DNA of 13,479 nucleotides, taken from the NCBI GenBank assembly GCA_020061125.1, contig JAGUYV010000326.1, forward strand, positions 1 through 13,479. The letters run 5' to 3'. How positions within the stretch are numbered: the stretch's first letter is position 1; each line of letters opens with the position of its first letter. The stretch comes from a bacterium. Its GTDB lineage: Bacteria > UBP15 > UBA6099 > DSWB01. The notes under the pieces are model-generated. The model had not been told where the DNA came from, did no database searches, and worked only from the letters and a program-made list of their open reading frames with translations. Below are positions 263 through 13,273 of the stretch, in pieces. A program made the translations under genes and the position numbers.

Positions 263-1156
263 ATGGAAAACAAAAAAAACGGCGAAAACAAAGGGCTTGT
301 TAAATTCGATCCAGATTTTAAGGGGCTGGAATCGGCGGTGAAATACAGCATTGACTCATATTATGACGCCGGAATTCCGAAACATATCCTTGAAACCGGG
401 GATGAAAAAGCCATTTTTGATTATGTCGCCCCAACTGTGATGGGCCTGCTCGGCCAGTACGAAAACACCCGGCTTACGATGGCCATGTTCCAGACCGCGA
501 TCCGGATCAAGCTGGGCGCAATATTCACTGATGTGAATGAAAAACTCGGCACGCACAGAATGCTCGAATTCGGCGAACAATTGCGTATCAGCAAACGCGC
601 AATCTACAACTACATTTCGATATTCAAGCACAGGCATGAGAACTTCATCGCCACGCTGCCGCCGACCAAGGCGCTGCACTGCATCGAGCTACTGCAAAAT
701 GATGAAGTGCAGCTTAAGGGCGACAAGCTGGTTATCAACATGGATGGGGAAAACATCGAGATCGGAGCGGAAAGCAGCGGGGAAACGGATTTCCGGTATT
801 ACAAGGCGCTGGTGAAAAAACACCAGGCCATGAAAAAGGAACTCGAAACGGAACAGAAAAATAATAAAAAGCTCGAAGACTTTTACGAAAAACAGTTGAA
901 AAAAAACCAGGAGGAAATCGCCGCACTGAATAAACGGGTTGCCGCTCTCTCGCCCGCTGACATGGAAACGGAACTGGACAGCGCCATCGTGTTCATTCGC
1001 GAAAAATTTGATTCCGCGGCGCAGCTTATCGTGAAAATGAACAACATGGAACTGACGCCCTATCTGCGCGCGAAGCTGCACAACTCCATTGACTACATGC
1101 ATACCATTTTGAGCAACCTGTTTGCAGATTCAGGGTATGAGGAAGCGCATGACTGA
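263..1156 (+). CDS. Coiled-coil HTH-like protein, first gene of the element
   Basis: The protein has 297 aa and no confidently recognised family. ATG 263 is preceded by AGGAG (251-255) at 7 nt. Residues about 98-121 (RMLEFGEQLRISKRAIYNYI) look like a helix-turn-helix, and the region around it loosely recalls DUF3102-type phage/plasmid proteins. Residues about 180-230 are rich in Lys, Glu and Gln and predict a coiled coil, suggesting a dimer. A helical tail follows at 236-288. There are no membrane segments or signal peptide. The 5' end is unusually A-rich (KKNGENK) against the GC-rich genes after it. It overlaps the next gene by 8 nt (ATGACTGA), so the two are probably translationally coupled. 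Lying beside the dyad array and ahead of the transposase, it may be an early DNA-binding regulator; this is inference. Confidence 0.7.
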   Translation: MENKKNGENKGLVKFDPDFKGLESAVKYSIDSYYDAGIPKHILETGDEKAIFDYVAPTVMGLLGQYENTRLTMAMFQTAIRIKLGAIFTDVNEKLGTHRMLEFGEQLRISKRAIYNYISIFKHRHENFIATLPPTKALHCIELLQNDEVQLKGDKLVINMDGENIEIGAESSGETDFRYYKALVKKHQAMKKELETEQKNNKKLEDFYEKQLKKNQEEIAALNKRVAALSPADMETELDSAIVFIREKFDSAAQLIVKMNNMELTPYLRAKLHNSIDYMHTILSNLFADSGYEEAHD

Positions 1157-1565
1157 TTCACGCGAGAAAATGTGGGCTGCGAGCCAAAGACACATGATCG
1201 AAGAAAGGATGATCATCAAGGCATACGCGGAATGCGCGTGCGCCCCGCACGGTGAAAAATGGCGCGCGAAATATGTATGGGCGGAAACATTCGGCGTAAG
1301 CGTCAGCACACTCGGCAGATGGTTCAAAAAGCTCATAGCACCGGACCGCGAAACCAACACAGGAACACGGCTCATGTTAAAAGAAGCATTGATTGCCCTG
1401 GCATACAACGAATGCGAGCGCGCCCCGCATGGTGGGAAAAGCCGCGTGAATGCCGAGTGGGCGAAAGTCTTTGGCATCAGACCAGGAACACTCAAAAAGT
1501 GGTTCGCAAACCGCAGGCTTTCGGAAAAGGGAACCGTCGCAAACAGGGGAAGGATGAAAAGCTGA
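1149..1565 (+). CDS. Small protein with two tandem transposase-like HTH repeats
   Basis: The protein has 138 aa. ATG 1149 was chosen because GAGG/AGGAAG lies 6 nt upstream and the start overlaps the previous stop; TTG 1122 and ATG 1137 are alternatives. It is essentially two copies of a 42-residue unit at residues 21-62 and 81-122, aligning without gaps at 19 of 42 identities. Shared landmarks are AY-x-E, HG-x-K-x-R, WA-x-x-FG, and TL-x-x-WF in the position of a recognition helix. The same unit occurs once more at residues 9-50 of the transposase encoded next. The coding DNA of the two copies is also visibly similar, suggesting fairly recent duplication. By analogy it should bind DNA, perhaps the transposase sites, and could modulate transposition. 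No catalytic motif is present. The family is not known to me. Confidence 0.8.
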   Translation: MTDSREKMWAASQRHMIEERMIIKAYAECACAPHGEKWRAKYVWAETFGVSVSTLGRWFKKLIAPDRETNTGTRLMLKEALIALAYNECERAPHGGKSRVNAEWAKVFGIRPGTLKKWFANRRLSEKGTVANRGRMKS

Positions 1566-1577
1566 AGGTAATCCTGA

Positions 1578-3260
1578 ATGAACTGCCACGCGAAACAAGA
1601 AATGATGCAAGATGCTTACCGCGAAATCGCCGCATCCTGCCACGGCGCGAAGGGGCGCATGAAAGAGAAATGGGCTGGCATTTTTGGGGTTTCCGCAGTA
1701 ACGCTTGACCGATGGCTCAAAGAGTATTCATGCAGAGAATCAACAGGGCGCGCGCACGAAGCCATGAGCAACAAAGCAGCCTCGAAAGAATACGCCGAAA
1801 CAGTGTTTGCCATGAAGCAGAAAATGGGTTGTGAAAAACGCACCTTAACAACCACGGAGGCGATAGCCATGTGCGAGCAACAGGGGCTTATACCCGAGGG
1901 CGTGATCACCGTCGCAGAAGCGAACCGGATTGCGCGCGTTCATGGAATCACGCGCAAGACACGGACGCGGCGCATGGAGAGCCGGATCGTGAATGAAACG
2001 CAACTTACGGACGGCAGCGGATCGGAATATCTGTATGTGAAGAAGCCATTGCCTGACGGGGATTGGCTGCTCGGGATCCGGACCACGAAAAAGACCTCGG
2101 AAAAGAACCCGCGGCTTGGCGGCGAGGAACCAGGCGAAGATGAAGGGCGGCTGCTGGTTTATTACTACGGCTTAGTGGAAGCGTGCAGCCGTGTGCTGTA
2201 CGCCGAAGTTTCGGTTGCGCGCGGTGAAAGCGCGGTGGACCACATTGAATTCCTGGAGCGGGCCTGGCGCGTGAAGGGGGATCATCCGCTGGCGGGAATG
2301 CCGAAGCGCCTTATCACGGACAACGGGCCGCTCGGCAGGCCAGGATACGGTGACAGCTTGATGAGGGAACTCGGCGTGGAGTTGATCACGCACATGCCGT
2401 ATCAGAGCCAGGCCAAGGGGAAAATTGAACGGGTATGGCGCACCATGTGGCAACGGTTCGAGCTGCCGTTTCTGGCGAACAAGGGGCGCGAGATCAGGCT
2501 GTCGGAACTGCAAGCCATGCTGACAAACTTTTTGCGGGAATACAACACATTGCCGTGCCCGAACCTGTTGTACAAGCCCATGCGCCTGACGCGCATTGAA
2601 GCGCTGCGGCGGTTTGCGAATGAAGCAATCACTCTGCCGCCGAGCGACGCGCGGTTTCTGGACCTTGCGACAAAGGAAACAGAGCGCACCGTCAACGCCG
2701 CGTGCGCGGTCACGCTGGACAACATCGAATATGAAATCATCGGCACGCCCTGGCATCTTGTGTCGCAGAAAGTGGGCGTGCGGCGCAGCTTGAGCGGGCG
2801 CGTGCAAGTGAGAAATCCGCAAACAAAACAATGGCTTGACACGAAGCAATACCGCTATCTCGAAGACAGCGAATACAGGAATTTCAAGCGCGACATCAAC
2901 GATGAGCTGCGCGAAGCCGCGGCGGACATCTCGCCCGCGGAGCGGTTTTTATACGAGGGCGGGGAGCGAACGGGCGCGGCGTGCGGGGAAACCGTGGTGG
3001 ACCTTGCGGGGGCGCGGGAAGCGCAACTGGCGTCGGAACGGGAGAGCCGGGGATTCAACAGCCTGACGGAAGCGCTCGGGTTCGTGGCGGACATCATCGG
3101 GCGGCCCGTGTGGAAGCTGCGCGAAGAGTTTCCGAATGAAGAGGCATTGATTGGCCGCATCGAGCAATACATCACCGAGAACATCCATGACCGCGCCGCG
3201 ATACAGCGGTTCGCGGAACTGCTGTTTCAGAAACTGCCCGCGCGGAGCGTGGCGCAATGA
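1578..3260 (+). CDS. Mu/TnsB-type DDE transposase
   Basis: This 560-aa protein would catalyse strand cleavage and joining at the element ends. The start ATG 1578 has AAGG 9 nt upstream. Residues 9-50 form an HTH unit homologous to the two repeats of the preceding protein, and about 86-130 look like a second DNA-binding region. The RNase H-like core carries D145 (LTDGS), D248 (ITDNG) and E284 (GKIER), so the triad looks intact. The last two are 36 residues apart (DD35E spacing), as in TnsB, IS21 and Tn552. Residues about 371-428 resemble the Mu transposase C-terminal beta-barrel domain. The helical tail (about 490-556) would suit contact with the ATPase encoded next, as Mu A contacts Mu B. The stop overlaps a possible ATG of the next frame. 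The catalytic core supports the call strongly; the assignment of D145 is by motif only. Confidence 0.9.
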   Translation: MNCHAKQEMMQDAYREIAASCHGAKGRMKEKWAGIFGVSAVTLDRWLKEYSCRESTGRAHEAMSNKAASKEYAETVFAMKQKMGCEKRTLTTTEAIAMCEQQGLIPEGVITVAEANRIARVHGITRKTRTRRMESRIVNETQLTDGSGSEYLYVKKPLPDGDWLLGIRTTKKTSEKNPRLGGEEPGEDEGRLLVYYYGLVEACSRVLYAEVSVARGESAVDHIEFLERAWRVKGDHPLAGMPKRLITDNGPLGRPGYGDSLMRELGVELITHMPYQSQAKGKIERVWRTMWQRFELPFLANKGREIRLSELQAMLTNFLREYNTLPCPNLLYKPMRLTRIEALRRFANEAITLPPSDARFLDLATKETERTVNAACAVTLDNIEYEIIGTPWHLVSQKVGVRRSLSGRVQVRNPQTKQWLDTKQYRYLEDSEYRNFKRDINDELREAAADISPAERFLYEGGERTGAACGETVVDLAGAREAQLASERESRGFNSLTEALGFVADIIGRPVWKLREEFPNEEALIGRIEQYITENIHDRAAIQRFAELLFQKLPARSVAQ

Positions 3261-3262
3261 CC

Positions 3263-3270
3263 GGGAGGGG
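3263..3270 (+). promoter_or_regulatory. Ribosome-binding site fixing the ATPase start
   Basis: GGGAGGGG lies 7 nt before ATG 3278 and downstream of ATG 3257, so it can serve only the later start. Confidence 0.6.
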
Positions 3271-3277
3271 AAAACGC

Positions 3278-4306
3278 ATGATAGACATCTTGGATCAAAT
3301 GGCGCATTTCGGGCTGAAAAAGGACCCGTTCGGCAAAGCCGGGCACGGGGACCTGTTTCGCGGCAAGAAATATCAGTCGGCATTGAACCTGATGCACGAC
3401 TGGATGCGGCGCGGAGAAATGGGCGCGCTGATCGGCCCGCCAGGGAGCGGCAAGAGCACGATCATCAACGACCTTGCGGCGCGGTGCCAGGAGGCCGGGG
3501 ACGTGCGGCTGGTGCATGTCGGGCACCCGGGACGCATCACGGTTTCCGACGTGTCCATATACGGCGCGCTGCTGATGGAATTCGCAAAGGACGGCCTGAC
3601 ATTATCGTCCCGATCGCAGATCCGGTTCACGGAACTGCGGGCGTTTCTGGGCGACACAATGAAGGGCGTTCACGTGGGGATCATCTTGGACGAATGCCAC
3701 AGGTACCGGGGCGAATTTCTGCGGGTTGTCAAGGAATTCAGTGAAATGCACTGGGGGCTGCGCACGGATTTGCTCGGGGTGATCTTCTGCGGCTGGCCAT
3801 CGTTCAACACAAAGATTCGCACCGCGGCCCCGGACGTGTACGCGCGGCTGCGCGTGGGGAGGAAAGTCATCCAGGCGGCGGACATCATGTGCGCGGAGAT
3901 CGCGGAATATCTGCGGCACCGGGCGCGGGCCGCGGGCAACGCGCGGCTGTTCAGCGACGGCGCGTTGAACGCCCTGGGACTTACGGCGGGAACACCGCTG
4001 AAAGCGAACGCCGAAGCCTGGGACGCGATGGACGCGGCGTTCAAGCAGGGTTCCAAAACCGTGCAGGTGGAACACGTGATCGGACACATGGACACGGCCG
4101 CGAAAAAGCAACTGCTCGGGGAAGGCTGCACCGTGCGGCTGATCGCGGCCGGAACCGGGTTGAGCAAGACCCTTGCCGGGGACATCCTTTGCGGGGTAAA
4201 GGACCGGCCCGACGGGCTTGAGACCATAGACAATTTTCTGACAAATGCTATCGCCGCGGGGGGCGTGGAAAACATGAAGACGCCCCGGAAAGCGGCTGGC
4301 GCGTGA
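3278..4306 (+). CDS. AAA+ ATPase, MuB/ExeA/TniB type transposition partner
   Basis: This 342-aa ATPase probably selects or delivers target DNA to the transposase, the role of Mu B and TniB. I prefer ATG 3278 because GGGAGGGG (3263-3270) sits 7 nt before it; ATG 3257 would overlap the transposase stop but has no comparable site. The N-terminus (HFGLKKDPFGK) is the ExeA-like lead-in. Walker A is GPPGSGKST at 53-61 and Walker B is IILDECHR at 135-142, with a sensor-like strand near 164-173 and possible arginine fingers at R190/R192. Residues about 285-328 (tGLSKt, ILCGVKDRPDGLETI) resemble an XRE/cI-type HTH. Mu B carries its HTH at the N-terminus, so the order here looks reversed. Adjacent position after the transposase fits a two-gene transposition operon. 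Confidence 0.85.
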   Translation: MIDILDQMAHFGLKKDPFGKAGHGDLFRGKKYQSALNLMHDWMRRGEMGALIGPPGSGKSTIINDLAARCQEAGDVRLVHVGHPGRITVSDVSIYGALLMEFAKDGLTLSSRSQIRFTELRAFLGDTMKGVHVGIILDECHRYRGEFLRVVKEFSEMHWGLRTDLLGVIFCGWPSFNTKIRTAAPDVYARLRVGRKVIQAADIMCAEIAEYLRHRARAAGNARLFSDGALNALGLTAGTPLKANAEAWDAMDAAFKQGSKTVQVEHVIGHMDTAAKKQLLGEGCTVRLIAAGTGLSKTLAGDILCGVKDRPDGLETIDNFLTNAIAAGGVENMKTPRKAAGA

Positions 4307-5849: not shown

Positions 5850-6347
5850 ATGAAACCGCCCAGAGAAAAAACGCCCGCGCAGAACCGGACGCTGAACTGG
5901 CTTTTGAACGAAGCCGGGCTGTTTGACGATCATGCGCGGGACTGTTTGCAAAGCGTGTGCGGCAAGCGGTACAGGCGGGACATGGATTTTTCCGACTATC
6001 AGCGGGCCATTGACGCGATATCCCGGATGTACGGGATCCGCATCAAGGGGAGCAAAGGCCGCATCATCGAGGGACGCCAGGGGCAGAGGCACGAACCGCT
6101 TCCCAAGCTGCGCAAGAGCGACCCCATGACCGGACTGCAAAGGGAAAAGATGTTCGAGCTGTACCACGAAATCGGCGCGGTGAACGTGCGCCAGCAGCGC
6201 GGCATATCGGAAAAGGCCGTGGGGAAACCCTGGCCGTTTACCGTGGGGGAAGCGCAGAAGGTGATCGAGGCTTTGAAAAACATGAAGGATCGCGGGTACC
6301 GCATGGATGACGCGCCCGCGCCCGGCCTGGAAGAGGAACGCACATGA
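5850..6347 (+). CDS. gemA: GemA / Mu gp16-like protein (DUF1018)
   Basis: The protein has 165 aa. Two segments match the GemA/gp16 pattern of Mu-like phages. Residues about 15-57 (LNWLLNEAGLFDDHARDCLQ, then DMDFSDYQRAIDAI) correspond to the N-terminal domain, which in relatives reads LGLDDDTYRxLLxxVTGK. Residues about 93-148 (MTGLQREKMFELYHEIGA, then PFTVGEAQKVIEALKNMKDR) correspond to the C-terminal domain. The usual basic N-terminal lead-in is missing. In Mu, GemA is an early or semi-early protein linked to modulation of host gene expression and supercoiling; its role here is inferred from family only. ATG 5850 lacks a clear ribosome-binding site. The stop overlaps the tape-measure start (ATGA), which is unusual because GemA belongs to the early region and tape measure to the late region. 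Confidence 0.7.
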   Translation: MKPPREKTPAQNRTLNWLLNEAGLFDDHARDCLQSVCGKRYRRDMDFSDYQRAIDAISRMYGIRIKGSKGRIIEGRQGQRHEPLPKLRKSDPMTGLQREKMFELYHEIGAVNVRQQRGISEKAVGKPWPFTVGEAQKVIEALKNMKDRGYRMDDAPAPGLEEERT

Positions 6348-9300
6348 GCGCATCATCGCACAACATCGTTGAAATCATCATCAAGGCGCGGGACCAGATG
6401 AGCGCGGAACTGCGCAAGGCCCGCGGCGCGCAGGACGAACTTTCAAAGTCCGTGAAATCCGGCCAGAACATCATGGCCAGCGCCACCAGAACCGTGGCCG
6501 GATACGCGGGCGCATACTTCGGATTTCAGCAGCTCAAAGACACGGTGAACGTGGCCGCGCAATTCGGCGAAAAGATGGCGTTTGCAAACACCATCGCGCG
6601 CAAGAGCGGGGCGGAGTTCGAGGCCATGACGCGCAAGGTGCGCGACATCAAAACCGAGTTCGGGCTGCTCGGCACATCAGCGCCCGACGCGCTGTACAAC
6701 ATCTATTCCGTGCTCGGGGAGACCGGAAAGAACCTCGATATCCTTGAGAAATCGGCGATGGCGTCCGTGGCCGGAATGGTGGACATCAACGAGGCCGCGA
6801 TATCCGCGACAAGCGCGATGAAGGCGATGGGCCTGGGCGCGGACCAGGCAAACCGCATCTTCGAAGTGCAGTTTAAAACCATAGAGCGCGGCAAACTGGT
6901 GTACCAGGACATCGCGCAATACACGGGCCAGTTCCTGGGGTCCGCGGCCGCTGCCGGGCAGGACTATGAAAAGGTCATGGGCCTGTACGCGACGCTGACA
7001 AAGAGCCTCGGCAACGCGGCCATGTCGGCCACATCATTGAACCAGGCGCTGGCCACCTTCACCAGCGCGGAGTTCGAGAAAAAGATGCGCGTCATGGGCA
7101 TCAGCGTCACGGATGCCGCGGGCAATTTCCGCGACTTTGACGCTGTGCTCAAAGACCTGTACACGCAACTCGGCAAGATGGATGAAGGCAAGCGAGCAAA
7201 GCTCATCGAAAAACTTTTCCCAGGGGAAGAATCGAAAAGAGCCATCCTCGCCATCGTGAACAATTTTGAAGAGGCGATGGACGACATCGCCGAGTTCGGA
7301 GAAATCACGGGCAAGAACTGGGAAAAGATTTTCGAGGAAATGAAAGACACATCGGCGTTTCAGATGCGCCAGGCCGCGGCCAATGTGGAGGAACTCAAGA
7401 TCGCGTTCGGAACCGAGCTGGCCCCGGTTGTCACGGAAGTGTTCGGGGACATCGTGGACTGGCTCAAGCGCATGCGCAGCGAAGGCAAGATAGACGAATG
7501 GAGCGCGGAGGTGCGCGACGCCGCGCGCCAGGTGTACGACAGCCTCACAGAAGTTTGGGCCATTGTGGTGCGGCTCTACACATTCATGAGCGACAACAAG
7601 TACGCCATGCAGACCGTGGCCATTTATGTGGGCATCGCCGTGGCCGTGAGCAAACTTACCACGGCTTACAAAACCGCGATGGCCTTCGTGGCCCTGTTCT
7701 CGCGCCAGAACGACCTCGCCGGAAAATCGGCGCAGCTTAACGCCAAGTACAACGACCAGCTCGCGGCCAGCACAACGCGCGTGGGCCGCGCGGCCATGAT
7801 TGCACGCACCGCGGTGCTCGGCCTGGTGGCCGTGCTGCCCGTGGCCCTGCAACTCTACACGGACTGGCTCGACCGCGATACGGACAGAAAACTGAAAAAG
7901 ATGTCCGAAAAAGACAAGGCGCACAAGACGGTCTCGAATCAGGCCAGGATCCGCAACGACTACCAGGAGGAATTCGAGCTGCTGCGCAAGCTGAACGCAG
8001 GGGAAATCAAGCTCGAAGACCTGCCGCAGGATCCCATGAAGTTGCAGCGCCTGTCCGTTGCGGCGCAGGCGCGCGCGCAGTACGCATCCGACCTGGGCGC
8101 GGCCATGCGCATGAATCCGGACGAAAAGCAGACGCGCGTGATTTCCCAGGAGCGCAACGCGCTCGGCGGGGTAAGCTCCAAAACCGAGACGGTCAATGTG
8201 GGCGGCGCGGATGCAATCGCCGCTCTTAACGCAAAGCTCAAGCCCACTGGCATATCCGGCCAGGACGCGGCAAAACTGGCCGCGCAGATCGAAAAGCACA
8301 TGGAAGCCAGGGGCATCATGGCCCCGTTCATGACCGGAGAAATGGGAAGCCGGAACTGGACGGTGATCGAGGCGCCCGACATGGGCGATGTGGAAAAGGC
8401 CATCAAAAAGGAATTCGAGGAGTCGCTCAAGGGCACGGCTTCGCCAGGCGCGGAGGCCCTGCTCGCGCAGGGCGGCGGCAAGGGCGCGGCCGCAAAGGAC
8501 AAACAGAAAAGCTACGACACTTCCGAAGGGCTGAAACTCAAGGGCGGGGCCGAGGCAAAGGGCAAGGCGCAGCCCGGCACATATTCGCTTGCGCACTATC
8601 TCCAGGACCAGCTTGGGATTACGAGATTCACGGCGTTCAAGGACGCGCTGCCCGAGCACCAGAAGGGCGCGCACGCGGCCGGGCTTGGCATGGATTTCAC
8701 GCTCAACAATCCGCGCGAGTCCCGAGATGTGGAGGCTTACATAGCACGCCTTGGCAAAGAGGCAGGCGTAAATCTCAACATTTGGAACGAGTACATCAAA
8801 ACATCCAAGGGCAAGACCGCCGACCACATGCATGTGGCGTTCGCTTCAAAGGACGATGCGGAAAAGTTCCGCAAGTGGTTTGCGGGCGTGCGCGGCGGCG
8901 TGCAGCAGGACGCGGTGAACCTCGGTGAGTTCGAGTGGGAACAGGAAATTGCGGACATGCAGCGCCAGCAGGTGGAGGCGATGGGCAACGCCATGCGCGG
9001 CATGCTCCAGGGCATGCAGGACGGCTACGAGCAGACGCGCCGCGACCTGGAACAGCGCATCGAGCGCGGCCGCGCACGCCGCGACATCGCCCTTGAAGCC
9101 AATGCTCCGGATGAATTTAATCTGCCGCTGCGCGAAGCGCAATTGAATGACTGGCGTAGCGCAACGGAAAAGGAGCTTGGCAAAAGCGAAAGCATTAACC
9201 GCCTGTATCTGCAAAAGCTGAACGCACTGCACGCGGAACATATCGAATGGAAAAAACAGCAGGACGGTTATTACGCGCAGTACACCTATGAGCAGCTCGA

Positions 9301-10129
9301 CCGCATGGTGCAGGATACGGCTACAAAAGAAGAGGAAAAGCTGCGCATCAGAGAGGAAATAAACCGCCGCATCGCCGAGGGCGAGATCGGACTGAACGAG
9401 GCTTACAAGCAGGGCGCGCGCGGGGCGTTCGAGGCGTTCGAGAGCTACCAGACCAAGATGCTGTGCCTCGGGCGCGAAACCGTGGACGGGCTGGAGAGCG
9501 CGTTCGGGGACTCGTTCGTGGCCGCGTTCCGCGGGGACATTGATTCCCTGGCCGATGTGTGGGACAACTTTTTGAACTCGATGGTGAACGCTTATGTGCG
9601 CAGCCTGGGCGAGATGGCCGCGCAGGAAATCATGGGCGGTATGTTCGGTGGTGGAGGCGGTTTTTTCGGTGGCGGAAAAACAGGCGGTGTAATTGCATTG
9701 CTCGCAAGCATGTTCGGTGGCCGCAAGAGTGGCGGCGCGCAGGCAAGCTCTGGCACCATGTTTGCGTTCGCCAATGGCGGCATCGCCCCGGGCCACTTGC
9801 AGCGCATCCGCGCGTTCGCGTCCGGAGGCGTGGTCAAAGAGCCGACCCTGGCGCTGGTGCGCGAGGCCGGGCAGAACGAGGCCATCGTGCCCCTGCCGGA
9901 CGGGCGTTCCATTCCGGTGATTTTACAGGACAGGGGCGGCTCTGGCGGCACTGAAATACATAACCATTACCAATTCAACATCAGCACGGACGATGCGCAG
10001 AGCTTCCTGGAAAAGAGGGGCGACATCATCGCCGCGATTTCCCAGGATGTGGCCGCGCGCGTGGCCCCGGCAGCGGTGCAGAAATCCATGAGCACGGGCG
10101 GGCCTGGCTCTGAATTTTTCGTGACATGA
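6344..10129 (+). CDS. Phage tail tape measure protein with M15-like peptidase domain
   Basis: The protein has 1261 aa; ATG 6344 overlaps the GemA stop and has AGAGGAA upstream. The N-terminal part, to about residue 325, has the TP901-type tape-measure pattern with helices rich in Ala, Gln and Lys. Hydrophobic segments at about 419-440 and 486-508 could cross the inner membrane during DNA entry. Residues about 746-850 carry a zinc-peptidase signature of family M15: H777-x2-G-x3-D784, then D827-x2-H830. H777, D784 and H830 would be metal ligands and D827 the catalytic acid. A coiled-coil region (about 860-1040) follows, then a Gly-rich stretch near 1096-1120. The ending is typical of lambda-type tape measures (FANGG, ASGGVVKEPTLALVREAG, AIVPL). 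The protein would set tail length and locally cleave peptidoglycan at ejection. The reading frame is intact, but no tail tube, chaperone or baseplate genes flank it. Confidence 0.85.
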   Translation: MSASSHNIVEIIIKARDQMSAELRKARGAQDELSKSVKSGQNIMASATRTVAGYAGAYFGFQQLKDTVNVAAQFGEKMAFANTIARKSGAEFEAMTRKVRDIKTEFGLLGTSAPDALYNIYSVLGETGKNLDILEKSAMASVAGMVDINEAAISATSAMKAMGLGADQANRIFEVQFKTIERGKLVYQDIAQYTGQFLGSAAAAGQDYEKVMGLYATLTKSLGNAAMSATSLNQALATFTSAEFEKKMRVMGISVTDAAGNFRDFDAVLKDLYTQLGKMDEGKRAKLIEKLFPGEESKRAILAIVNNFEEAMDDIAEFGEITGKNWEKIFEEMKDTSAFQMRQAAANVEELKIAFGTELAPVVTEVFGDIVDWLKRMRSEGKIDEWSAEVRDAARQVYDSLTEVWAIVVRLYTFMSDNKYAMQTVAIYVGIAVAVSKLTTAYKTAMAFVALFSRQNDLAGKSAQLNAKYNDQLAASTTRVGRAAMIARTAVLGLVAVLPVALQLYTDWLDRDTDRKLKKMSEKDKAHKTVSNQARIRNDYQEEFELLRKLNAGEIKLEDLPQDPMKLQRLSVAAQARAQYASDLGAAMRMNPDEKQTRVISQERNALGGVSSKTETVNVGGADAIAALNAKLKPTGISGQDAAKLAAQIEKHMEARGIMAPFMTGEMGSRNWTVIEAPDMGDVEKAIKKEFEESLKGTASPGAEALLAQGGGKGAAAKDKQKSYDTSEGLKLKGGAEAKGKAQPGTYSLAHYLQDQLGITRFTAFKDALPEHQKGAHAAGLGMDFTLNNPRESRDVEAYIARLGKEAGVNLNIWNEYIKTSKGKTADHMHVAFASKDDAEKFRKWFAGVRGGVQQDAVNLGEFEWEQEIADMQRQQVEAMGNAMRGMLQGMQDGYEQTRRDLEQRIERGRARRDIALEANAPDEFNLPLREAQLNDWRSATEKELGKSESINRLYLQKLNALHAEHIEWKKQQDGYYAQYTYEQLDRMVQDTATKEEEKLRIREEINRRIAEGEIGLNEAYKQGARGAFEAFESYQTKMLCLGRETVDGLESAFGDSFVAAFRGDIDSLADVWDNFLNSMVNAYVRSLGEMAAQEIMGGMFGGGGGFFGGGKTGGVIALLASMFGGRKSGGAQASSGTMFAFANGGIAPGHLQRIRAFASGGVVKEPTLALVREAGQNEAIVPLPDGRSIPVILQDRGGSGGTEIHNHYQFNISTDDAQSFLEKRGDIIAAISQDVAARVAPAAVQKSMSTGGPGSEFFVT
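8579..8893 (+). other. M15/LAS-type peptidase domain inside the tape measure protein
   Basis: The span encodes about residues 746-850. The spacing of seven residues between H777 and D784 is that of the VanX-type SxHxxGxAxD motif, with Ser and Ala both replaced by Gly. The second motif, DHMH (827-830), fits the E/D-x-x-H of M15 enzymes. Such domains usually cleave peptide cross-links of peptidoglycan. Low-complexity Lys/Gly/Ala linkers flank the domain, as expected for an inserted module. Confidence 0.65.
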
Positions 10130-10202
10130 TTCTAAATTGATTCAAGACCATAAAATGCCCTGTGGCAAGTGCGCCTGGGCGGTGGAATAACAAGAAATTA
10201 TG

Positions 10203-10210
10203 AAGGAGGG
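10203..10210 (+). promoter_or_regulatory. Ribosome-binding site favouring a TTG start at 10218
   Basis: AAGGAGGG lies 7 nt before TTG 10218. It directly follows ATG 10200, so it cannot serve that codon; the TTG is therefore the likelier start. Confidence 0.6.
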
Positions 10211-10217
10211 AAAACCC

Positions 10218-11330
10218 TTGAACCAGGAACAATTCAGGGAACACTGCATCAAAAATCTCGGGTTAACGGCGGCGCAGGCGGATGAACTGTGGAGCACAGT
10301 TGTTTCCCCGGCCGCGGCAGAGAAAAAGCAGCAGGATCTGGCGGTTGCCGAACAGGCCAACATTGCGTTGCAGGCCAAGGAAACGCACCGCAGAATGCTG
10401 GAGGCCGGGGCAGACCGCTTGATCGCTGATGGCACCCTGGCCAGAGAAAAGCGGGAAGAATTCATTCAGTTCATGGATTCAACCATCGGAAGCGGCGGGG
10501 CCGCCCAATTCAGCGCGGACAGCTTGAATGACGTTTTGGCAAAATTTCTGCTCGGGTTCTATTCGAACCACGGACCGGAAAAGATCGTGCATGTGCCGTC
10601 TTCATTCGCCGCTCCTGGCGTGGCCGGGGCCGAAGCCCGCAGGGCCGCGCTTTTCGATTCCAATCAGCAGTTGCGCGAGAACATGGCGTCTCACGGATTC
10701 GGGCGCGCCGACTACATCAAACATGGCCCGGATGTGCCGCTGAATACGCTGCGCAGTCTCGGGGGCGCGGCTTATGCTTCACAGTTCGCGGCACAGGATC
10801 CGGAGTTCGCGGCGCAGTTTGCGGCATCGGATCCGCTGCTCGCCGCGGCGAATGAGGCGAACCTTGAAGATCGGCGCATCAAGGGCATGTGCCATGTGCT
10901 CGGCATCAGCCGGGAAACATTCGACAAGAATCCTGTAATGTGGCGCAATCACGCGAAAAACAATGTCCCGCGCGAAGCCTATGCGCAGTTCGCGGCCGAG
11001 TCTTCGGGGGAGCCGTTTCTTGCGGCTGCGGATTCCGCGGACATGGAAGACCGCCGCATCAAAGGCTTGTGCCATAAGCTCGGCATCAGCCGGGAAACAT
11101 TCGACAAATCGCCCGGCACCTGGCGCGGTATGGCGGAAAAATTCGGGCATACAAAGCCCGCCGCAGGGGCACAGTTCGCGGCCGGAGATCCGCTGCTTGC
11201 GGCCGCGGATGAAGCGGACATGGAAGACACGCGCATCATGGGAATTTGCCACAAACTCGGCATCGGCCGGGAAACGTTCGACAAGAACCCCGAGTTCTGG
11301 CGCGGCCATGCGAACCGTGTAGGGGCGTGA
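10218..11330 (+). CDS. Protein with three C-terminal tandem repeats, possibly virion/scaffold-like
   Basis: The protein has 370 aa from TTG 10218 (ATG 10200 would add six residues). Residues 1-190 are helical, with Gln/Ala-rich parts and a YIKHGPDVPLNTLRSLGGAA segment. Then QFAAxDP-type motifs introduce three repeats starting near F201, F258 and F320. Each repeat reads DPLLAAADEADMEDRRIKGL-type, then CHKLGISRETFDKNP and a WR pair. The repeat core resembles the C-terminal motif of Mu gpI-type proteases/scaffolds (vC-x-x-LGlS-x-eeF); this is a weak likeness and no protease active site is visible. A duplicated motif suggests multivalent binding. It follows the tape measure gene after 88 nt and precedes a terminator-like hairpin, so it probably closes that transcript. 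Head scaffold, tail-associated protein and unrelated cargo are all possible. Confidence 0.75.
   Translation: MNQEQFREHCIKNLGLTAAQADELWSTVVSPAAAEKKQQDLAVAEQANIALQAKETHRRMLEAGADRLIADGTLAREKREEFIQFMDSTIGSGGAAQFSADSLNDVLAKFLLGFYSNHGPEKIVHVPSSFAAPGVAGAEARRAALFDSNQQLRENMASHGFGRADYIKHGPDVPLNTLRSLGGAAYASQFAAQDPEFAAQFAASDPLLAAANEANLEDRRIKGMCHVLGISRETFDKNPVMWRNHAKNNVPREAYAQFAAESSGEPFLAAADSADMEDRRIKGLCHKLGISRETFDKSPGTWRGMAEKFGHTKPAAGAQFAAGDPLLAAADEADMEDTRIMGICHKLGIGRETFDKNPEFWRGHANRVGA
10818..11327 (+). repeat. Three in-frame repeats of about 170-186 bp
   Basis: Repeat copies begin at 10818, 10989 and 11175 and encode the 57-62-residue protein repeats. A 30-nt stretch is identical between copies one and two (10898-10927 and 11078-11107, 180 nt apart). 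The third copy differs from it at two or three positions. DNA identity this high suggests recent duplication or ongoing homogenisation of the repeats. Confidence 0.8.
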
Positions 11331-11404
11331 CAGGCAATTCAAAAGTCTTAAAGGCGGTTGCTCTCGATGAACAAGCGCGCAACCCTGGGCGGCGATAATG
11401 GACG

Positions 11405-11437
11405 GCTCCCGGCTCATCACCGGGGGCTGTTCTGTTT
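11405..11437 (+). terminator. Probable terminator after the repeat-protein gene
   Basis: GCTCCCGG (11405-11412) pairs with CCGGGGGC (11420-11427), with one G-U pair and a 7-nt loop, and is followed by TGTTCTGTTT. The T-run is interrupted. It lies 75 nt after the stop at 11330 and before the Mor-family gene, so it would separate the two transcripts. Confidence 0.5.
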
Positions 11438-11460
11438 GCCGCTATAGCGCGGCGTTTGTT
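11438..11460 (+). terminator. Second hairpin with T-rich tail
   Basis: GCCGC (11438-11442) pairs with GCGGC (11449-11453), followed by GTTTGTT. It is directly downstream of the previous hairpin and may reinforce it. The stem is short, so the call is tentative. Confidence 0.3.
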
Positions 11461-11494
11461 TTAGGCACCCGCTGCGGCTTCGCAAAGGGATAAA

Positions 11495-11833
11495 ATGGAA
11501 GACATTGTTGCGCTGTTTAACTTAGAATCCGGCCATCTTCCCGAGCCATACAGTGGGCTTTTTGAAGCGTTCCTGGAACATGTGGATGAAGGCACGGCCA
11601 TGAAACTGATTGTTTCAACGGCAAGGCACCTGGGCGGGGATCAGCCGTACTTTGGAACCCTGAAAGGGCTTCTTTCAGAAGCCAGAACAAAAGCCATATT
11701 GTCTGATTTCAACGGTTACAACCATCGCGAAATGGCACGAAAATATGGGGTGACAGTAAAGACCATACAGAATATTTTGAAGAAACACCAAAACAAAAGA
11801 GGGAATGCGCAAGGGTCTTTACAGTCACTTTGA
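11495..11833 (+). CDS. mor: Mor-family transcription activator
   Basis: The protein has 112 aa, slightly shorter than Mu Mor. ATG 11495 follows AAAGGGA (11484-11490). The family signature is clear: residues 47-56 (GGDQPYFGTL) are the Gly-Gly plus beta-strand segment that forms the Mor/C dimer. Residues 68-96 (ILSDFNGYNHREMARKYGVT, then VKTIQNIL) are the C-terminal HTH with the (F)NG-x-N(H)xELA+KYG pattern. Mor binds upstream of middle promoters and activates RNA polymerase to move from early to later expression. Here it is the last gene of the element, after tape-measure and repeat-protein genes, whereas in Mu it lies between early and late blocks. Hairpins upstream suggest its own promoter, which I could not place. 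Confidence 0.85.
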   Translation: MEDIVALFNLESGHLPEPYSGLFEAFLEHVDEGTAMKLIVSTARHLGGDQPYFGTLKGLLSEARTKAILSDFNGYNHREMARKYGVTVKTIQNILKKHQNKRGNAQGSLQSL

Positions 11834-11881
11834 GTTCCGCGATCACGGGCAAGAAAATGACGCCCGACCAGAATACAATAA

Positions 11882-11969
11882 TCATGCCAACTCAATAAAT
11901 GCCCCGTGCAGGGCCACGAACCACGGCTTGCAACTCATATATTTCAAGCCTAAAATCAAGTTGGCATGA
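11882..11969. repeat. 11-bp inverted repeat, candidate element-end sites
   Basis: TCATGCCAACT (11882-11892) and its exact complement AGTTGGCATGA (11959-11969) are separated by 66 bp. A third partial copy, TTGCCAACT, lies at 12230-12238, next to the stop codon of the oxidoreductase gene. They could be transposase-binding sites at the right end, ends of a small non-autonomous element, or a weak long-range hairpin. The sequence does not match the dyads at 101-227. Confidence 0.5.
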
Positions 11970-12082
11970 CAAAAATGTCGGTTTCTATTTTCATCATTTT
12001 TGGGGTTCAAATTCATCATCGCTTTATAAAACTAGGGACAGGCCCCAGCTTAGCTTGTTGTCAACCAAATATGCTGGCGGTC

Positions 12083-12138
12083 GCAAAAGCAGGGACAGGC
12101 ACGCGGGAATGCGCCGCGTTCCCAGTCCCTGTTTTTGC
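12083..12138. terminator. Long REP-like hairpin, likely bidirectional terminator
   Basis: Positions 12083-12096 (GCAAAAGCAGGGAC) pair with 12125-12138 (GTCCCTGTTTTTGC), all 14 positions including one G-U pair. An inner GGGAA/TTCCC stem (12105-12109 with 12119-12123) extends the hairpin. The A-tract on one side and TTTTT on the other suit termination from both directions, as needed between convergent mor and oxidoreductase genes. AGGGACAGGC in its left arm recurs at 12034-12043, the pattern of REP/RAYT-type palindromes. Confidence 0.55.
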
Positions 12139-12239
12139 TGCTTCTACAGCAGGCAATTGTTGCGGAACAAGGCTTTTCAGGCAGATACGATATACTGCGG
12201 GCAATATCAAAAAGCGGTTAGATTGACGCTTGCCAACTA

Positions 12240-13094
12240 TTACCCCTTGAAATCTTTGAGCGCCTGATCCAGGTAGGACTGGTAGTCGAGGCGGGATTTG
12301 TCTTCGAAGAACAGGCCGGTGATGTAGCGCGGGTCCTGTGCCAGGCGCATGGCTTCGGTGAGGCTGGCGGTGTCGTGGTTGGGCGGCGGGTCGGCCAGGA
12401 GGCCGCGCATGCGCTTCCAGGTGATGTTCTCTTTGTCAAAGGTCACGCACGGGGACAGGCAGTGCACGAAGCTGAAGCCCTTGTGCTCGATGGCGGCTTT
12501 GAAGACGCCTTTCATGTGCGCGACATCGCCGGCGAAGCAGCGCGCGGCGAAGGTGGCGCCGTAGGTGAGGGCCAGGGCCATGGGGTTCAGGGGCGCGTCC
12601 GGATTGCCGTAGGGGTGGCTGCTGGTGGGCTGGCCCAGAGGCGTGGTGGGCGAGGACTGGCCCTTGGTGAGGCCGTAGATGTTGTTGTCGTACAGGAAAC
12701 AGGTGATGTCCACATTCTTGCGGGCCACATGGGCGAGGTGCCCGCCGCCGATGCCTAAACAGTCGCCGTCGCCGGTGATCACGAACACGGACAGGGCGCG
12801 GTTTCCGAGCTTGAGGCCCGAGGCCACGGGCAGGGCGCGGCCGTGGATGGTGTGGAATCCGTAGGCGTCGTAGAAGATGGGGGCGCGGCCCGCGCACCCG
12901 ATGCCGCTGACGATGCCCATGTCGTGGTGCGGGATGCCGAGTTCGTGCGCCACTTCAATCAGCGCCTGGGTCATGCCGAAGTATCCGCAGCCCGGACACC
13001 AGGTGGGCAGTTCGTGCGAGCGGTAGTCCAGGTAGCCGCGCGCGGCCACTTCCTTGAGTTTTTCGTCAAGATAAAAAGGTTTGGGTTCAGCCAT
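12240..13094 (-). CDS. 2-oxoacid:ferredoxin oxidoreductase, beta (TPP) subunit
   Basis: This 284-aa cytoplasmic subunit binds thiamine pyrophosphate and passes electrons from 2-oxoacid decarboxylation to ferredoxin, forming acyl-CoA with the alpha subunit. The TPP/Mg motif is GDGD at 108-111, leading to DNNIYGLTKGQ at 136-146. Cysteines C33 and C36 (WCPGCG), C67 (GIGC) and probably C216 would hold a [4Fe-4S] cluster. The first three have the 3- and 31-residue spacing of the Sulfolobus enzyme. ATG 13094 opens the conserved start (MAEPKPFYLDE); longer starts add non-conserved residues. The IYGLTKGQ signature fits pyruvate or 2-oxoglutarate enzymes, and the substrate cannot be chosen from sequence. 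The alpha-subunit gene lies upstream on the same strand across an unusually long gap of 192 nt. Confidence 0.92.
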   Translation of the reverse strand: MAEPKPFYLDEKLKEVAARGYLDYRSHELPTWCPGCGYFGMTQALIEVAHELGIPHHDMGIVSGIGCAGRAPIFYDAYGFHTIHGRALPVASGLKLGNRALSVFVITGDGDCLGIGGGHLAHVARKNVDITCFLYDNNIYGLTKGQSSPTTPLGQPTSSHPYGNPDAPLNPMALALTYGATFAARCFAGDVAHMKGVFKAAIEHKGFSFVHCLSPCVTFDKENITWKRMRGLLADPPPNHDTASLTEAMRLAQDPRYITGLFFEDKSRLDYQSYLDQALKDFKG

Positions 13095-13136
13095 GGTTGC
13101 CTGCCTGTGAATGGTGATGTGGAAAGACCATAAAAT

Positions 13137-13273
13137 ATTTGTCCACGAAGTGCACGAAGAAAAGCACAAATAAATGCGGGTTCGGGCGGAGGGAGCGCAT
13201 GGGGCTGTTGAAACGGCGCGGGGGGCGAAAAAACGCCGGGACGAATTTGTCCAAGAAGTGCATGAAGAAAGGC
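13137..13273. repeat. Pair of 29-bp direct repeats between alpha and beta subunit genes
   Basis: Positions 13137-13165 and 13245-13273 are 26 of 29 identical, 108 bp apart. On the - strand each reads as a doubled CTTCGTG-type motif (CTTCGTGCACTTCGTGG in the copy at 13137). This is reminiscent of the TTCGTG-rich intergenic repeats seen in many bacteria. They fill a gap that in most such operons is only a few bases. No coding sequence with a convincing start was found between them. Confidence 0.65.

Follow-up and report, generated by a model that had tools for sequence, protein, structure and literature searches.

A gene directly before a Mu-like transposase is predicted to encode a tandem copy of the transposase's own end-binding HTH domain

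Introduction

Why would a transposable phage carry, directly before its transposase gene, a small gene that consists mostly of two copies of the domain with which the transposase itself begins? The question is raised by a locus in the window, by which we mean the whole stretch of 13,479 nucleotides analysed here (positions 1 to 13,479 of contig JAGUYV010000326.1). Element-encoded proteins that share a DNA-binding domain with the transposase are of a known kind, and a form with two end-binding domains would be a new variant of it.

Results

The gene in question (P0001; 1149-1565, plus strand) encodes a protein of 138 residues, assuming that the ATG at 1149 is its start, and the gene that follows encodes a transposase of 560 residues (1578-3260, plus strand). 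A preliminary description had reported three homologous 42-residue units with shared AYxE, HGxKxR, WAxxFG and TLxxW motifs, and these are indeed present. Unit 1 (1209-1334, MIIKAYAECACAPHGEKWRAKYVWAETFGVSVSTLGRWFKKL) and unit 2 (1389-1514, LIALAYNECERAPHGGKSRVNAEWAKVFGIRPGTLKKWFANR), both on the plus strand, make up most of the 138-aa protein, and unit 3 (1602-1727, plus strand, MMQDAYREIAASCHGAKGRMKEKWAGIFGVSAVTLDRWLKEY) forms the N-terminus of the transposase, as translation confirms. Aligned without gaps, units 1 and 2 are identical at 19 of 42 positions, units 1 and 3 at 21 and units 2 and 3 at 14, with BLOSUM62 scores of 99, 98 and 78, respectively; none of 20,000 shuffles matched the likeness of any pair. 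The top ungapped 42-residue match of the 138-aa protein with itself scores 107 (maximum of 32 in 300 shuffles) and that with the transposase scores 100 (maximum of 31 in 60 shuffles). A tblastn search of its own genome returned the 138-aa protein itself and the N-terminus of the transposase (E 3.9e-7), and nothing else. Position 37 of the unit, in the recognition helix, is Arg in nearly all aligned transposases; unit 1 keeps the Arg and unit 2 has Lys instead, which makes unit 1 the better candidate for binding shared sites, while unit 2 may have shifted. The recognition helix of unit 2 differs from that of unit 3, and as these are also the least similar pair, they might recognise different DNA.

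The ATG of the 138-aa gene overlaps the stop codon of the preceding gene (ATGACTGA, 1149-1156) and has a ribosome-binding site, AGGA, 5 nt upstream; AAGG lies 9 nt before the transposase ATG at 1578. All three units lie in one reading frame, and between the two genes there are three in-frame stops (TGA AGG TAA TCC TGA; 1563-1577, plus strand), so the genes are neither a frameshifted fusion nor one interrupted by a single stop. With the transposase also full length when compared with its relatives, a split or frameshifted single transposase gene was ruled out.

The transposase is a DDE enzyme of the MuA/TnsB kind (phrog_310, E 8e-29). Its catalytic triad, D145, D248 and E284, is invariant in an alignment of 17 sequences and sits in an RNase H-like core that matches those of MuA, TnsB and retroviral integrases. 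Foldseek with the transposase model retrieved TnsB of a V-K CAST (8rdu, E 1e-14) and MuA of the Mu transpososome (4fcy, E 6e-9), and alignment of the model to the TnsB structure gives a Z of 19 over 382 residues. A MuB-like AAA ATPase gene adjoins it (3257-4306, plus strand; phrog_296, DNA transposition protein, E 7e-13; AAA_22, E 2e-11). The enzyme is not MuA proper, which has the enhancer-binding domain Ialpha before Ibeta: the unit starts at transposase residue 8-9, the phrog_310 alignment starts at profile position 131, and a search of 17 members of the transposase family for Mu-type HTH families (Ialpha-like) gave no match at E 0.01.

The unit is predicted to be a three-helix, homeobox-like HTH fold. 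The AlphaFold model of the 138-aa protein (mean pLDDT 81) has HTH-spaced helices at 2-31, 37-48 and 52-63 and again at 71-91, 97-108 and 112-126, and that of the transposase N-terminus has the same HTH-type helices (3-18, 22-36 and from 40), in keeping with the HTH that the preliminary description had proposed. The PHROG 310 transposase profile places the unit within the larger family, with unit 1 aligning to positions 127-168 (E 5e-5). MuA matches this profile end to end (residues 1-644 to positions 6-639), so the unit should correspond to MuA residues ~122-163, within subdomain Ibeta. Together with Igamma, Ibeta binds the Mu ends (PMC3362531); NTD1 of TnsB is a homeobox-superfamily domain that resembles MuA Ibeta, and both are domains that touch the DNA ends (PMC9527255). 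Structure realignment superposes residues 10-65 of the 138-aa model on V-K CAST TnsB 34-89, which is NTD1 (Z 6.0), and residues 3-69 on MuA 94-158 in 4fcy (Z 4.9). Such Z values are modest for single three-helix units, and these two scores sit amid a background of homeodomains, unrelated HTH proteins and homeodomains scoring alike, so the argument for kinship to end-binding domains rests on where the unit lies in the transposase and on the PHROG alignment. Foldseek with the 138-aa model alone gave no match under E 0.4, TnsB and MuA coming only from realignment, and comparing the unit with the MuA sequence by itself, by HMM and by profile, aligned only a few residues around VSASTL (140-145), without significance. 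We conclude that the unit probably corresponds to an end-binding domain of the Ibeta/DBD1 type, with DNA binding itself a prediction, which bears out the earlier suggestion of an end-binding-like HTH at the N-terminus of the transposase, here an enzyme of the Mu/TnsB-like DDE type. It shares the fold and the place in the transposase of TnsB NTD1 and MuA Ibeta (PMC9527255); there the domain is part of the transposase, whereas here it also occurs as a free-standing double copy.

To place the arrangement among its kin, we compared the locus with 15 transposase relatives (3 genome contigs, 10 IMG/VR records and 2 from another genome of the same order, the latter with transposases 38 and 36% identical to that of the window). 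In all 15 the transposase begins with exactly one N-terminal unit, and a sixteenth is present in a second contig of one relative; the unit is thus found in every relative that is complete at that end, as the preliminary description would have it, and at nine very distant transposase loci there was no unit at all. The same description had asked whether transposable phages generally pair a double-repeat gene with such a transposase, and here the answer is negative, with none of the 15 relatives having a double-unit gene. In every one of them the coiled-coil gene ends within ~40 bases of the transposase start or overlaps the transposase, and only the window has the 138-aa gene between the two. 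The window's own coiled-coil gene (263-1156, plus strand) matches the neighbour gene of relative L012 by BLASTP (E 4e-14) and those of other relatives by profile comparison (96%, E 7e-9). The unit HMM found no free-standing units in the flanks or whole records of the 15 relatives, and none elsewhere in the window's genome or in six other genomes of its phylum; with the 138-aa protein as query, no homologue was found in IMG/VR, phages or plasmids. Within the collections searched, only this phage has the double-unit gene, which is known from a single contig and a possibly defective prophage. In relatives L003-L027, the conserved coiled-coil gene before the transposase has an HTH-like part, and in deltaproteobacterial relatives an IclR-like winged-HTH gene precedes it.

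In a tree of 15 units, which rests on 42 columns and has modest support, the three window units group apart from the rest with an ultrafast bootstrap of 84, and the free pair apart from all others with 83. The simplest reading of this tree is that the transposase's own unit was duplicated within this lineage, so that the double-unit gene would have arisen inside it. Scored with an HMM built without the window units, units 1, 2 and 3 reach 25.2, 27.3 and 23.8 bits; the free copies score as high as the transposase copy, so they have kept the family core and show no more decay than the functional copy. Between unit 1 and the transposase unit, dN is 0.49 and dS 2.6, and none of 4000 neutral simulations retained an open frame with the protein identity of this pair. 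Units 1 and 2 differ at 14, 14 and 17 sites by codon position, with a dN/dS of 0.74, which gives no clear sign of selection between the free copies.

Before the early operon lie five AGTNNA palindromes (100-227), candidate binding sites, of which those at 121-138, 149-167 and 210-227 have perfect arms, three against 0.02 expected in shuffles. The arms covary between sites, and a 19-mer, AAAACAYGATAACAACAAA, is duplicated after the last two palindromes, within 100-248. As RNA, the region folds better than 200 of 200 shuffles (z -3.4). The array was not seen in the relatives, nor were matching sites found at the right side of the element. It may be an operator for the 138-aa protein, an operator for a repressor encoded outside the contig, or RNA structure in the form of hairpins. 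Between 1-262 and 11834-12260 no inverted TG...CA repeat stands above shuffles, and neither phage end was located.

Discussion

The 138-aa gene occupies the slot that ner has before A in Mu. Ner itself has a single domain and no kinship with the transposase. Both are small proteins encoded directly before the transposase gene, binding DNA (by prediction in the case of the 138-aa protein), but the window's protein consists of two transposase-type units. Nor is its HTH of the Cro/C1 (Ner) type: no Ner family match was found in it, and HTH_3 remained sub-threshold over 24 residues (17 bits, cut-off 23). The preliminary description had set the protein apart from the usual Ner and repressor proteins. 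That distinction should not be drawn too sharply, since the slot is that of ner and the Mu repressor also shares a transposase domain, albeit a different one.

The Mu repressor and MuA have a DNA-binding domain in common, and the repressor binds the Mu ends (PMC3820752); the repressor family phrog_7148 matches MuA 3-61. The repressor is thus a free, element-encoded regulator that carries a domain of the transposase and binds its sites (PMC3820752), as the 138-aa protein would be too, but Mu shares one copy of the enhancer/operator-binding Ialpha, which is absent from the window transposase, whereas here the shared domain is Ibeta-type and comes as two tandem copies. In insertion sequences, IS2 OrfA and an N-terminal fragment of IS30 repress, and IS911 OrfA stimulates insertion (PMC3299598). 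These resemble the 138-aa protein in being separate small DNA-binding proteins (putatively so for ours) that are encoded directly before the catalytic part; they repress or modulate (PMC3299598), as ours may. In the IS3 family, however, OrfA is the coding sequence of the transposase N-terminus, in an overlapping frame and joined to the remainder by a programmed frameshift, whereas the 138-aa gene is a separate paralogue in frame 0, cut off from the transposase by three stops, and the transposase retains a unit of its own.

The 138-aa protein is thus most likely an element-encoded regulator that has the transposase's DNA-binding domain and is built from two end-binding domains. Our proposal for how it works, which we put at a little short of an even chance, is that the gene is a lineage-duplicated tandem copy of the end-binding HTH whose product binds transposase-related sites and so restrains transposition or early transcription. 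The end-binding unit of the phage's own transposase would have been duplicated to give a tandem double copy in a separate gene, inserted in the early operon between the conserved coiled-coil gene and the transposase. The protein, which we infer to be translated, would most likely bind the recognition sites of the transposase at the phage ends, or related sites in the early control region; their occupation would restrain transposition, early transcription or both, an action like that of Mu repressor c and of OrfA in IS2 and IS30, which use other shared domains. The negative rather than positive direction of this effect is taken from analogy, and by the precedent of IS911 OrfA a protein of this kind can also stimulate. 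Counting against the proposal, too, are the failure to locate the phage ends or an end repeat, the diverged recognition helix of unit 2, the modest structural scores, the single instance and the incomplete look of the prophage. It is possible, though doubtful, that the protein is a dedicated trans-acting regulator of transposition that replaces Ner-type control, and so represents a third independent route to such a regulator beside Mu c/Ialpha and the IS OrfA proteins.

Alternatively, the protein might act purely on the early operon, as a transcription regulator at 100-227 that replaces Ner or a repressor and whose specificity has drifted, with no competition at the ends. The ner position of the gene, the excess of palindromes upstream of the operon and the diverged recognition helix of unit 2 are consistent with such a role, as is the lack, before the window's coiled-coil gene, of the Xre/IclR-type genes that relatives have there. 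However, position 1 of the window is also the first base of the contig, and a conventional repressor could be encoded shortly beyond it; nothing ties the 138-aa protein to the palindromes, whose covarying arms could equally reflect RNA hairpins; we consider this reading rather unlikely. The protein could also be a positive accessory factor, its linked domains bridging or bending the end sites to aid transpososome assembly in place of Ialpha. MuA has Ialpha before the unit, promoting assembly via the enhancer, where the window transposase has no domain, and IS911 OrfA is an example of a stimulating protein (PMC3299598), but all the relatives lack both Ialpha and the double gene, so the latter is not a general substitute, which leaves this role improbable.

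We give little probability, too, to the gene being a by-product of a decaying prophage in which the 5' end of the transposase gene was partly duplicated in tandem, the copy being expressed but having no selected function. The single instance, the frame shared with the transposase, the apparent absence of head genes from the prophage, and the near-even codon-position differences and dN/dS between units 1 and 2 would all fit such an origin. Against it, both copies keep the consensus core, the frame is open for 138 codons and has its own ribosome-binding site, and dN between unit 1 and the transposase copy is well below dS.

If the regulatory reading is true, this phage made a regulator from its transposase's own end-binding domain, and the 138-aa protein may be a phage-built brake on, or helper for, its own jumping. 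The locus would then offer a small, clean system in which to ask if free end-binding domains hinder transpososome assembly or assist it, and small HTH genes before Mu-like transposases would deserve comparison with the transposase N-terminus, beyond the Ner and repressor families.

The MuB-like ATPase, a GemA-like gene and a Mor-like gene mark the element as Mu-like. Within 5850-13169, a gene for a 1261-aa tape measure protein comes immediately after the GemA-like gene, and the Mor-like gene (11495-11833) comes later; it is followed, at 12240-13169 on the minus strand, by what we take by eye to be a host-like 2-oxoacid:ferredoxin oxidoreductase beta gene. The region suggests an incomplete or rearranged prophage, since it has no head or packaging genes, except perhaps at 10200-11330. 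That 376-aa ORF has weak matches to phrog_976 (head maturation protease) and phrog_8685, and its C-terminal half contains three HTH-like repeats of the type MEDRRIKGxCHxLGISRETFDKxPxxWRxxA. The same genome has a second transposase of this family, ~32-34% identical (L017, 3-1391; G000:C171), which is cut by the start of its contig and is likewise followed by a MuB-like gene.
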